From Fusobacterium varium (GTDB lineage: Bacteria > Fusobacteriota > Fusobacteriia > Fusobacteriales > Fusobacteriaceae), in assembly GCA_900637705.1 (NCBI GenBank), contig LR134390.1, positions 1,550,001 through 1,614,000 on the forward strand: a DNA stretch of 64,000 bases, in the 5' to 3' direction. Position numbers and translations under genes: made by a program. The notes under the pieces are model-generated. The model saw only the letters and a program-made list of their open reading frames with translations. It ran no database searches and was not told the origin of the DNA. The stretch's first letter is position 1, and the number at the start of each line of letters is the position of its first letter. Of the stretch, positions 6,195 to 40,452 are shown piece by piece.

Positions 6195-9100
6195 TTAGAA
6201 TTTGTACCCGATTCCTGCTCCTACTATCCATTCACCTTTTGTTCTATTTTTTCTATTTCCATTATGTGAATCTCTTTCTACTGAATAACTTCCTTTTACA
6301 TCAAAAAGAATTCCATTTTCTAATTCCAGAGCATACTTAGCATTTACTCCTATGCTTTGTTCATTCTTATGAGCTACTAAAATATCAAAGTCGCTTCCAC
6401 CTTTAAATCTTCCTGTGATATTTTCTTTATCTGCCCCAGTAAGAAGTCTTATATAGCTTACCCCTGCTGACAGTGTGCTTTTTCCTTTTTCATGTGGGAT
6501 TACTTTCTTAATGTCTACTCCCACTTTAGCTGCTGTATAGTCAAATGATTTTGAATCTGTTTCTATTGCAAGAACCTTACTTCCTTCATCTGTGCTATCT
6601 TGCTTGATATATGTATATGACAATGTTCCATATGGTTCTAAGAATAGATTTTCTCCTATATTGTGAGAATATCTTCCATTTAGATAAATATCATATGTCA
6701 TATCATTATAGTTATCTGAATAACTTCTTGTTTCTGTTATTCCTCTTCCTGCTGCAATTCTGTCTGCATCATAATCTCCATACTGTAGACCTAATCCTCC
6801 TGTTACTTTTAGATTTCCAATATACTTCTTAGCATATGCTCCCATATACAGCGCATCTCCATCTACTTTTGAACCATTAGACAAATCAGATTTAAGTTTG
6901 TTTCCTCCAATTACTACTCCATAAGTCAATGTGTCTGATACTCCATATTCTCCAAGCATATATGCTCCTGTTATTTTAGTATCTACGTCCATATCTGAAC
7001 TTCCTATGTCATATGTGTAATATCCCTTTCCATAGTATGTATCTTTTGTTCCACCATCTACATGAGTCAGTCCACCCATTATCAACCATTTATTCAGTTC
7101 TGGTTTAAATTGGCTTTCCACTGCTATATCTCTAAACATTCCCACTGATTTTCTTGAAAGTTCACCTGAATATGAATATGGATTTCCTGCATAGATATCA
7201 TTTAAATATCCTGAGAATGCTGAAAGTTTCTCATCACTATCTACATTAAATTCCTTCACTCCATCTACAACTCTCATACTCTGATATATTTTATTTAATT
7301 TTTCATAATTTATATCTTCAGGAGCAGCTGATGATAATGGTAATGTAGATTTACTTGTAACCGTTACTTTTGTGCTATCTGACCCATTCTTACTAACTGA
7401 ATGCAAAAGAGAAGTTGTTTCTAAAGTAAATAAATCTCTGTATTCAATATCTGTATTTTCTACACCATACAATCCATCTCCAAGCTTCATTCCGATATTT
7501 ATTTCACTTCCATCTGATACTCCATTTAGAGCTAAAAGAAGTTTTCCCCCATTTGATTCTATTGTTCCTCCTATATTACTTGATAGAGCATGTGAATTGT
7601 TATTTGTTCCATCTATTCGCAATGTAAGAGCTCCATTTTCCTCTATTGTTATCTTTTCTGTTCCTGTTACTGTTAATTCTCCCCCTTTACCACTAGTATT
7701 AACAGTTCTCTCAAATAGAGTAACATTTGTATTGATATTTATGTCCTTAAAATTAGATATGTTGTGCATAATATTTATTCCTTGACTGTCTGCTGAATTT
7801 GACTTAGTAACTGAACTGATTCCCAAATTAAGAGTATTATCTCCAGCTCCTCCATCAAGAGTTCCATTAATTATTGTTCCATCTCCTATTATAAGAATAT
7901 CATCTCCCCCTCCCATATCTATACTTCCATTAACTATAGTATTTTGAGTTACAGATTTTTCAACTTCATTATCTATATATTTAATTTTTTCTGACTGTAA
8001 TATTAAAGTATCTCCTTCATTGCTTCCTAATATTGTTACACTATTATCTAGTCCTCCATTTACTATTGTTCCTGACAAAGTTAATTGTTTATTTGCTTCT
8101 TCAAATACAACTGCTGTTCCATAGGCATTTATTATTGAACCTGTTATTTCATTATTTGAGCCAGTAACTTTATATGTATTTTTAAAAGCATTTAATATAT
8201 GGTTTTCTTTATTTCCACTAAATGAATTATCTTTATTTTCATTTTTTCCTGTTACATTTTCTATTGTTACATTTCTTTTTCCTATAATATTTTTCTCTGT
8301 ATCATAAAACAATATATCATGATTTCCTCCAGCTCCTGCTGTTATATCGGCTTCATTTATCCCTTTATTTTTTATTATAAGTCCATAGTTTACTATTTTA
8401 TTTGTATCTGTAGTAGATGAATCAACAATGTCTAATCCATCAACTACCTCATTATTAGAACTATTTGCAAGTATTCCATAATTATTTGCTGTAGCTATAG
8501 TTCCTATCTTCCCATTTTTATCTTTATAATTTTTTATAGCATTTACTGAGCCATTAATAATTCCTGTATTTGTTATAGCCTTAATCAAATTTCCTTCAAG
8601 AGAATTATTATATATTCCATAACGACCAAAATTACGACTATCATGATAATTATTAGAACCATTTATTATTCCTGTATTTGTTATCCTTCCCATTGTGTTA
8701 TTCGAATTATCTATTCCACCACCATAATTAGAACCATTTATTATTCCTGTATTTGTTATATCTCCTATTGTACCTATATTATATATTCCACGACCATAAT
8801 GCCTCCCAGAACCATTTATTATCCCCATATTTATTATATTTTCCATTTTACCAGTATTAGCTATTCCCCAACCAGAAGCATGCCCAGCAACAGATGTGTC
8901 CTTTGTATAAACACTTATTATTCCTATATTTGTTATATTTCCCATTATACTTTCCTGTCCTGCATCTTCTCTTTGATTATATATTCCATAACTATTTGAC
9001 TCAGAAGCACCAACCTCATTTATTATTCCTGTGTTTGTTATATCTCTTGATGTCCCTGCATATTGATATATCCCATGACTATGACTACCACTAAAACTAC

Positions 9101-38637: not shown

Positions 38638-38869
38638 TTTTTGCTTTTACATATAATTTAATTATAAAACTATATATAATTCTATTTAATTTTTCCTTCC
38701 TTTGCTATCTTTTCCTACTGATGAGAAACTTGCTTTAATAGTTACATTTAATGTTTTTGCTTTTACATATAATTTAATTATAAAACTACATCTGATTCTA
38801 TTTAATTCTTCCTTCCATTACTATCTTTTCTTACTGACGAGAAACTTGCTTTAATAGTTACATTTAATG
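38638..38869. repeat. Tandem 116-bp direct repeat (two copies)
   Basis: Copies 38638-38753 and 38754-38869 begin with TTTTTGCTTTTACATATAAT and end with GCTTTAATAGTTACATTTAATG; they differ at scattered bases. The next 116-bp phase point (38870) is exactly where the first structured-RNA unit begins with the same TTTTTG. Each copy has a weak TTGCTT-N16-TATAAA promoter-like motif. They may be decayed relatives or regulatory repeats of the RNA units. Confidence 0.8.
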
Positions 38870-38872
38870 TTT

Positions 38873-38900
38873 TTGACTTTTTACCGATTTATGCTATAAT
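38873..38900 (+). promoter_or_regulatory. Promoter of RNA/peptide unit 1
   Basis: TTGACT, 16 bp, TATAAT with extended -10 (TGC before it). Predicted transcript start at 38907. Confidence 0.75.
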
Positions 38901-39043
38901 TAGGTTAGAAGTCCCTTAAGGGCACTTTAGATAGTTAATAAACGTGATGAGTTTGGCTCTCTCTTTGAGGGAGCCTTTCTCATACTTATAAGTTAGTCAC
39001 GTTTCTTATAAGTAGTAGATTAACTATCTAAAGGAGGTTCACT

Positions 39044-39154
39044 ATGATTAAATTTGAATTTAATTTTAGCAACAATTTGATTGAGGGTGGTACCTTAGTT
39101 GCAATTCTCTTGATTGTAATTGTTGCTTTAATTATAATCATTTTAGTCCTCTAG
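39044..39154 (+). CDS. 36-residue hydrophobic single-span peptide, putative type I toxin 1
   Basis: ATG at 39044 behind GGAGG (6 bp spacing). A polar N-terminus (MIKFEFNFSNNLIEGGT) is followed by about 19 consecutive hydrophobic residues (LVAILLIVIVALIIIILVL) to the stop: one membrane span with no loop. Size, composition and the sequestering leader match bacterial type I toxins of the hok, fst and aapA kind in architecture; no sequence family is recognised. It is almost identical to the second copy (one residue, L12 to Q), while the leaders differ strongly. Alternatively it could be a small membrane regulator. Confidence 0.65.
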   Translation: MIKFEFNFSNNLIEGGTLVAILLIVIVALIIIILVL

Positions 39155-39162
39155 TCTACCTC

Positions 39163-39186
39163 AGCCCTTTGGGGCTTCTTTTATTT
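39163..39186 (+). terminator. Terminator of unit 1
   Basis: AGCCC-TTTG-GGGCT stem followed by TCTTTTATTTT. The GGGGCTTCT arm is also complementary to the 5' end of the transcript. Unit 2 has the same stem with a TTCG loop (39525-39548). Confidence 0.7.
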
Positions 39187-39210
39187 TGAGAAGAAAAGGT
39201 ATAAAAAAAA

Positions 39211-39229
39211 CCTCAGAGCTAGTCTGAGG
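39211..39229 (-). terminator. Minus-strand terminator between units 1 and 2
   Basis: CCTCAGA/TCTGAGG hairpin; on the minus strand it is followed by eight T. It lies directly behind the unit 2 promoter, so an antisense RNA started within unit 2 would end here. Confidence 0.7.
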
Positions 39230-39236
39230 AATGTTT

Positions 39237-39264
39237 TTGACTTTTTGCCGATTTATGCTATAAT
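39237..39264 (+). promoter_or_regulatory. Promoter of RNA/peptide unit 2
   Basis: TTGACT, 16 bp, TATAAT with the same extended -10 as unit 1. Predicted start at 39271. Confidence 0.75.
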
Positions 39265-39270
39265 TAGGTT

Positions 39271-39548
39271 AGAAGTCCCTTAGGGGCACTTGTGGTATGT
39301 AGAAAAAGCGATGAAATAAGCTCTCAGTAATGGGAGCTTATTTCATACTCAGGAGTTAGTCGCTTTTCTCATGAGTAGAAGATTACATACCACAAGGAGG
39401 TTTACTATGATTAAATTTGAATTTAATTTTAGCAACAATCAGATTGAGGGTGGTACCTTAGTTGCAATTCTCTTGATTGTAATTGTTGCTTTAATTATAA
39501 TCATTTTAGTCCTCTAGTCCACCTCAGCCCTTCGGGGCTTCTTTTATT
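39271..39548 (+). ncRNA. Structured leader and mRNA of putative type I toxin, unit 2
   Basis: Same fold as unit 1 with different bases. Stem A pairs CTTGTGGTATGTA (39289-39301) with TACATACCACAAG (39384-39396), ending in the Shine-Dalgarno. Stem B pairs AAAAGCGA (39304-39311) with TCGCTTTT (39360-39367). Hairpin C pairs ATGAAATAAGCTC with GAGCTTATTTCAT (39311-39346). Stem D pairs ACTCAGGAG (39347-39355) with CTCATGAGT (39368-39376), 8 of 9. The 5' AGAAGTCCC (39271-39279) and 3' GGGGCTTCT (39534-39542) are conserved unchanged. Confidence 0.65.
39407..39517 (+). CDS. 36-residue hydrophobic single-span peptide, putative type I toxin 2
   Basis: Identical to the first peptide except N-N-Q at positions 10-12. 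The DNA of the peptide and terminator is almost unchanged between copies whereas the leader stems have diverged, so both are probably under selection. It has its own promoter, ribosome site (AAGGAGG) and terminator. Confidence 0.65.
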   Translation: MIKFEFNFSNNQIEGGTLVAILLIVIVALIIIILVL

Positions 39549-39572
39549 TTGAGAAGAAAAGATATTAAAAAA

Positions 39573-39591
39573 CCTCAGAGCTAGTCTGAGG
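39573..39591 (-). terminator. Minus-strand terminator after unit 2
   Basis: Second copy of the CCTCAGA/TCTGAGG hairpin, followed on the minus strand by TTTTTT. It would shield the units from minus-strand transcription from hicAB. Confidence 0.65.
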
Positions 39592-39618
39592 CTTGAGATT
39601 TTATTCTTCTAAAAAATT

Positions 39619-39842: not shown

Positions 39843-40232
39843 CTAAATGTTTTTTAAAGCTGCTACTAGTAAAGAAGAACAATTTATATTTTTTTCTTTT
39901 GCTAATCTATTAAGCCATCTTGGTATTGTTACATTTCTTCTTTCTACCTTATTTTCATATTCATCTCTATAAGGAGGCATATACACTTCTATTAATTGAA
40001 CAAAATCTCCTTTTTCTATTTGGCCTTGATAAGGTATATTAGCTTCTGGGATTTTTTTATCTTCTTCTTCTAAAATGCTCATATATCCTGCTAAACAATC
40101 TTTAGCCATATATAGACATTCTTCTAAAGTTTCCCCTTGAGTATTAGCACCTTGTAAATCAGGGAATTCTATCCAATATCCTCCTTCTTCTGCTCTATGA
40201 AATATTGCTGGATAAATATATGTGTCTTTCAT
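39843..40232 (-). CDS. hicB: HicB-family antitoxin
   Basis: 129 residues. N-terminal HicB fold: YPAIFHRAEEGGYWIEFPDL, then GETLEECLYMAKDCLAGYM. The C-terminal RRNVTIPRWLNRLAKEKNINCSSLLVAAL is a ribbon-helix-helix DNA-binding part, so it should repress its own promoter as well as neutralise HicA. It lies 37 bp downstream of the HicA gene, the common hicA-hicB order. Confidence 0.92.
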   Translation of the reverse strand: MKDTYIYPAIFHRAEEGGYWIEFPDLQGANTQGETLEECLYMAKDCLAGYMSILEEEDKKIPEANIPYQGQIEKGDFVQLIEVYMPPYRDEYENKVERRNVTIPRWLNRLAKEKNINCSSLLVAALKNI

Positions 40233-40269
40233 GGTTCCCTCCTTTTCTATTTTTCAAGGGAAACTGGAG

Positions 40270-40452
40270 CTATTTCACTCCAGCATCCTTTAAGATTTTA
40301 TGATATAACCCAATCTTTATATCTTTGTTATGTCTTGGAACTGGTATTGCTCTTCCATCTTTAACATAAATATAATGACTTCCACGAGTTCTATCATATT
40401 TCCACCCGTTTTTCTCTAACAAGCGAATGAGGTCTTTAAAGTTTGTTCCCAT
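40270..40452 (-). CDS. hicA: HicA mRNA interferase toxin
   Basis: 60 residues, normal for HicA. GWKYDRTRGSHYIYVKDGRAIPVPRHNKDIKIGLYHKILKDAG has the double-stranded RNA-binding-like fold with the catalytic His in GSHYIY. HicA cleaves mRNA when not bound by HicB. Start chosen at GAGGTGAAACC-ATG, 18 bp after the -10 of a consensus promoter. Confidence 0.92.
   Translation of the reverse strand: MGTNFKDLIRLLEKNGWKYDRTRGSHYIYVKDGRAIPVPRHNKDIKIGLYHKILKDAGVK

Follow-up and report, generated by a model that had tools for sequence, protein, structure and literature searches.

What are the two short, closely similar units that stand in tandem on a chromosome of Fusobacterium varium, and do they form a type I toxin-antitoxin (TA) system, as the original prediction proposed? 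To answer this question, we analysed a window of 64,000 nucleotides (nt) from a Fusobacteriaceae chromosome of 3.3 Mb (positions 1,550,001-1,614,000); unit 1 occupies positions 38866-39229 and unit 2 positions 39230-39591 (window coordinates, plus strand). The claim that they share promoter, peptide and terminator is borne out: the units are 88% identical, and each consists of a promoter (TTGACT/TATAAT), a leader some 125 nt long, an AAGGAGG ribosome site, an open reading frame (ORF) for a 36-residue peptide with a single membrane span, a short tail and a terminator. The peptides of unit 1 (MIKFEFNFSNNLIEGGTLVAILLIVIVALIIIILVL, 39044-39154) and unit 2 (MIKFEFNFSNNQIEGGTLVAILLIVIVALIIIILVL, 39407-39517) differ only at residue 12 (L/Q). 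Our answer, to which we give a probability of about 0.72, is that each unit gives rise to an mRNA that locks itself and encodes a toxin-like membrane peptide; the units belong to a large, undescribed family of the Fusobacteriaceae.

The homologues with covarying helices that had been anticipated among Fusobacteriota exist. By DNA search, the window's own genome has five copies, and nine genomes have related stretches. A first covariance model, made from leader helices C and D only, was run on 98 Fusobacteriota genomes; its 51 matches fall in 16 of them, without exception inside the window's family (f1), and eight of the matches, six complete units and two remnants, lie in the own genome. Beside these class 1 units stood others whose leaders have a shorter D helix; the model (R2) of this second leader class matched in 18 genomes, again all in f1, four of the 18 being weak. 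In total, the family comprises about 80 units in more than 20 of the 61 Fusobacteriaceae genomes, while covariance model searches of 37 genomes of other Fusobacteriota returned none. The set parsed with ribosome site, ORF and terminator holds 38 class 1 and 42 class 2 units; class 1 tests use 37 of the 38, the frameshifted L055 being left out. Pattern matches outside Fusobacteriota were set aside as chance, at 20-35 bits vs 54-99 for complete units; the best of them, Ruminococcus L084, has no peptide unit and was counted likewise.

All leaders lie between a near-consensus promoter and a strong ribosome site and follow one plan, in which stem A encloses a domain composed of hairpin C and a true pseudoknot of helices B and D, the latter because the 3' arm of B sits in the loop of D. 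In unit 1, stem A pairs 38925-38939 with 39019-39033, which extends into the Shine-Dalgarno sequence; helix B pairs 38940-38947 with 38997-39004, hairpin C spans 38948-38982 and helix D pairs 38983-38992 with 39005-39014. The counterparts in unit 2 are 39289-39301 with 39384-39396 for stem A, 39304-39311 with 39360-39367 for B, 39312-39345 for C and 39346-39355 with 39368-39377 for D. When 42 class 1 leaders were aligned with a model blind to B, 92.5% of the cells of this helix were paired and 95 were double-change cells, with a covariation of 0.717 against 0.200 in shuffled alignments and at most 0.147 in slid controls; helices C and D have equal covariation support in the same leaders. Class 2 leaders have the identical topology, B being GTTC/GAAC or GCTT/AAGC, and the leader domain contains invariant positions. 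Stem A is variable in sequence, its pairing being kept within each unit: over 31 non-redundant units, own arms average -19.6 kcal/mol and swapped arms -6.7 kcal/mol (z -22.8), and in the 42 class 2 units the same comparison gives z -25.7. Thus all four leader helices of the original prediction are real, and its argument that the RNA fold is selected holds beyond the two window units, over two sets of 42 loci. The U-rich stretch after hairpin C prompted us to consider C as an intrinsic terminator, a possibility rejected since in most units those U's belong to the hairpin, paired to its 5' side.

Two further pairings tie the ends of the transcript together. In unit 1, the promoter (38873-38900, TTGACT and TATAAT 16 nt apart) has its predicted start at 38907, and the 5' segment (38907-38924) pairs with 39164-39179 in the terminator hairpin (39163-39182), while the ribosome site and ATG (39031-39046) pair with 39152-39162, which comprises the stop codon and an anti-Shine-Dalgarno tail (TAGTCTACCTC). 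In the predicted fold of unit 2 (promoter 39237-39264, predicted start 39271), the 5' segment (39271-39288) likewise finds its own terminator hairpin (39526-39545), and the ribosome site with ATG (39394-39409) the stop codon and tail (39515-39525). Nearly all units carry the complement of their ribosome site after the stop codon, and where the site is not GGAGGT the tail co-varies with it: GAGGCT/AGCCTC (L032), GAGGGA/TCCCTC (L063), GGGGGTAC/GTACCCC (L060) and GGAGGAATGCT/AGCATTACCTCC (G018:C5).

These pairings were tested by comparing thermodynamic duplex energies of own and swapped partners, in non-redundant sets obtained by clustering related units, with 50,000 permutations (floor p 2e-5). 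For ribosome site and tail, z was -8.1 in 20 non-redundant class 1 units and -8.0 in 20 of class 2, and the signal persisted without the GGAGG core (z -4.9); for the 5' end and its own terminator hairpin z was -6.3 in class 1 and -4.8 in class 2. In class 1 stem A, ribosome site-tail and 5' end-terminator each reached p <=2e-5, while the mismatched control pairings (5' end with tail, ribosome site with terminator) were not significant in either class. The 5'-terminator pairing proposed earlier is accordingly unit-specific, and it is also present in the predicted minimum free energy (MFE) fold. With folding energies of -111.2 kcal/mol for unit 1 (z -10.9) and -110.6 kcal/mol for unit 2 (z -8.9), the full transcripts are far more stable than chance, as none of 200 dinucleotide shuffles was equally stable. 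In the MFE fold predicted for unit 1, three helices (5' end/terminator, stem A, ribosome site/tail) adjoin one another, separated by 0-1 unpaired bases. Over 37 units, the mean predicted probability that the Shine-Dalgarno is unpaired is 0.018 at full length and rises to 0.40 once the RNA is cut back to the stop codon. The ribosome site is thus predicted to be hidden, as had been supposed, but what covers it is the ACCUC sequence that follows the stop codon and not stem A; the end-to-end lock stands as a prediction supported by covariation.

The encoded peptides have 22-38 residues and one hydrophobic membrane span. In the majority class, to which the window peptide belongs, an N-terminal segment is followed by an [N/D/E]GG-like motif (xGG) and then the span. 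A pN/pS ratio (non-synonymous to synonymous change) of 0.21-0.52 among related ORFs points to purifying selection. The window peptide has no match in Pfam or NCBIfam, including none to Ldr_toxin, and Rfam gave no match above the gathering score for the window region or the other sampled loci, in line with the earlier statement that no known family has this peptide. Under the same leaders there is a second, unrelated class of peptides that resemble Ldr/Fst: Pfam Ldr_toxin (PF13940) matches three of them with E values of 7e-5, 7e-4 and 1e-3, all below the curated cut-off of 27 bits. The own genome also has, 38 kb before the window (G000:C1:1511678-1511754, minus strand), a complete unit whose leader belongs to this family and whose peptide is Ldr-like (MSFLKELALQVVADVLASIICKWLDRK). 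The toxin reading is strengthened by this class, because Ldr/Fst-like type I toxin peptides occur under the same leader. An alternative 48-residue frame in unit 2 is an unlikely product, as it starts upstream of the Shine-Dalgarno.

Leader and ORF have separate histories, because the leader of unit 2 matches that of a third unit at 1,734,062, 145 kb away (93% identity), and its ORF that of unit 1 (98%); conversely, unit 2 is 72% identical to unit 1 in the leader and 81% identical to the third unit in the ORF. The differences between the two window leaders had been read as compensatory change, and pairing is indeed kept; judged by these identities, modules were swapped and the leaders have not merely drifted apart.

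The known hosts are F. varium, Cetobacterium, Propionigenium maris and another member of the Fusobacteriales. In F. varium Fv113-g1, units lie on two MOBQ plasmids, where all are unannotated, so that the family adds missing gene calls; some units lie inside predicted proviruses. Relatives carry arrays of three to five units within a few kilobases; those at L087, L065 and L047 pack three to five units, or more, into 1-2 kb, most of them with leaders of the second class. Several copies have decayed by frameshift, truncation or deletion: L055, L058, L039, L056 and L062 show a frameshift, a premature stop, loss of the ribosome site or deletion of the ORF, their leaders being still recognisable. 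Two short versions have no ORF (L016, ~1494-1610; L094, ~6330-6480) and consist of promoter, 5' hairpin, B and C arms and a terminator right after the B 3' arm; they may be deletion remnants or decoy RNAs. A DNA search of phage records gave no match, nor did tblastn searches of plasmids and phages with two peptides, queries so short that the latter result is uninformative. No type I toxin mRNA described for Fusobacteriota was found in a search of open-licence papers, and an F. nucleatum transcriptome study makes no mention of one (PMC11005410).

Taking these results together, the family most likely consists of type I-toxin-like mRNAs that work in the manner of hok and aapA, their membership of type I TA systems being unproven; carriage on MOBQ plasmids and predicted proviruses, tandem arrays and decayed copies were counted in favour. 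In the mechanism that we propose, the leader would fold first, stem A closing the domain of hairpin C and the B/D pseudoknot. At the end of transcription the 3' end would fold back, so that the tail covers the Shine-Dalgarno together with the start codon while the terminator joins the 5' end; the tight three-way junction of these helices with stem A would keep the peptide from being made. Loss of the 3' tail, for which exonuclease trimming is the likeliest cause, would expose the ribosome site, and the leader pseudoknot would then probably aid 30S loading, as it does in tisB and timP. Once made, the peptide would enter the membrane and arrest growth or slow it. Module shuffling, selection on the peptide, the pseudoknot and the other helices, and both pairings between the ends are shown by sequence statistics; transcription start, inertness, trimming, toxicity and the role of the pseudoknot are inferred.

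Several observations weigh against this reading. A sigma-70 promoter model, scored against shuffles in the 80 units, recovered the sense promoter in 94% (plus-strand mean p 0.008); in the antisense direction, over leader, ORF plus tail, downstream flank and upstream divergent flank, predicted minus-strand promoters stayed at shuffle level in all four regions (mean p 0.52-0.59). Neighbouring copies aside, the flanks hold no complementary stretch of a small RNA (sRNA) beyond chance. In predicted nascent RNAs the Shine-Dalgarno is only partly paired (median ~0.4 unpaired), a difficulty for silence during transcription. Three IEGGT units, including both window units, keep the Shine-Dalgarno paired in the predicted cut RNA because of a second CCTC at the ORF end, and trimming would have to reach further in them. 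Finally, the partner-swapping tests retain some relatedness between units. Folds predicted at nascent lengths contain no conserved metastable Shine-Dalgarno hairpin and no common partner besides the base of stem A; of the hok/aapA architecture first proposed, 5'-3' pairing, the hidden ribosome site and the single-span peptide stand, and the metastable hairpin is not supported.

The strongest alternative, which we rate a little below even odds, is that the units are complete type I TA systems whose antitoxin, an antisense or trans-acting sRNA, was missed owing to a weak promoter, a promoter of another class or a far-off gene. The mRNA logic of hok and aapA and the Ldr/Fst-like peptides agree with it, and so do the stems of paralogues, which diverge yet pair, as expected if antisense cross-talk is avoided. 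The window units also carry a minus-strand TATAAT within the ORF (scores 8.9 and 9.8), and since such a TATAAT or TACAAT occurs in the ORFs of both window units and of the unit at 1,734,062, there may be an antisense RNA specific to that subfamily. Against it stand the chance-level minus-strand promoters and flanking complementarity. The partner that defines a type I system, an antisense RNA, was not found by these predictions over the 80 units, so we do not file the family as a proven type I TA system; that part of the original prediction is not supported. A short co-directional RNA-like element (CAGGCAYTNRCTCTCGNAAGAGAG with a T-run) occurs three times in the 61 genomes (L102, L103 and L104), just upstream of the units at G000:C1:1734062, G027:C1:1497439 and G027:C1:2288696. 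A short upstream RNA (CAGGCAYTNRCTCTCG...) was rejected as a general antitoxin, having only three occurrences in 61 genomes and no clear complementarity to the leader. Type III-like action, in which a pseudoknot RNA binds the toxin, was thought unlikely, there being no tandem RNA repeats and the RNA being the toxin's own leader.

More doubtful is a bolder version of the self-locking reading, in which these would be widespread toxin genes without any antisense antitoxin, silenced wholly within the mRNA, with lock release or recognition of the pseudoknot as the sensor and with freely shuffling modules. It is improbable that the leader is a cis-regulatory RNA, sensing a ligand or protein, for ordinary small membrane proteins that are not toxins: a conserved pseudoknot domain with invariant positions and purifying selection on the peptides would fit, but the lock, the Ldr/Fst-like peptides, the tandem arrays, plasmid carriage and decayed copies would be left unexplained, and Rfam holds no match for the sampled loci. 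That the RNA itself functions as a structured sRNA with an incidental peptide is very improbable, for despite the strong promoter and structure and a few truncated ORF-less leaders (L016, L094), these copies are few and deletion-like, and 79 units retain a strong ribosome site and an ORF under the selection described above.

In the vicinity of the pair, a second inverted repeat follows each terminator, at 39211-39229 after unit 1 (CCTCAGAGCTAGTCTGAGG) and at 39573-39591 after unit 2. An imperfect tandem repeat of ~116 bp (38702-38880) lies directly 5' of unit 1, and AATGTTTTTG is common to it and the start of each unit. The adjoining hicB/hicA pair (HicB_lk_antitox and HicA_toxin, 39843-40452, minus strand) is an ordinary type II TA system, and its proximity looks incidental because other units with known surroundings sit elsewhere.

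Among known systems, the closest in logic are hok and aapA, in which the full-length mRNA stays inert, owing to a far-downstream anti-Shine-Dalgarno and a 5'-3' interaction, until its 3' end is truncated (PMC6733600). The lock of hok/Sok of plasmid R1 and its relatives shows coupled covariation and is activated by 3' trimming (PMC6733600, PMC4147584); the Fusobacteriaceae units also pair 5'-3', with an anti-Shine-Dalgarno downstream of the ORF, but show neither sequence nor peptide similarity to it, have a leader of closing stem and pseudoknot, and yielded no Sok-like antisense RNA. With aapA/IsoA of Epsilonproteobacteria (PMC6733600) they have in common the long-distance 5'-3' pairing, the far-downstream anti-Shine-Dalgarno, a short single-span peptide and several chromosomal copies; they differ in the leader pseudoknot, an unrelated peptide and the lack of an IsoA-like antisense promoter and of a conserved metastable Shine-Dalgarno hairpin. 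In tisB/IstR-1 (PMC7708055) and timP/TimR (PMC11228461), too, the mRNA of a small membrane toxin has a pseudoknot in its leader at a long distance 5' of a sequestered ribosome site, and in tisB this pseudoknot is required for 30S and S1 binding (PMC7708055); in these enterobacterial systems, whose sRNA antitoxins are known, local structure hides the ribosome site, whereas the present units use the 3' end. From hok, aapA, tisB and timP alike they are set apart by sequence, peptide, host phylum and the absence of a detectable antitoxin. Several units encode peptides like Ldr_toxin of the Ldr/Fst superfamily (PF13940; PMC7472228), although the window peptide is of the unrelated xGG class and the leader has no Rfam match. 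The family thus offers a toxin-like mRNA with an end-to-end lock in about 80 natural versions, every helix showing covariation, and because it unites the lock of hok and aapA with a pseudoknot like that of tisB and timP, it makes silence during transcription and the need for an antisense antidote testable.
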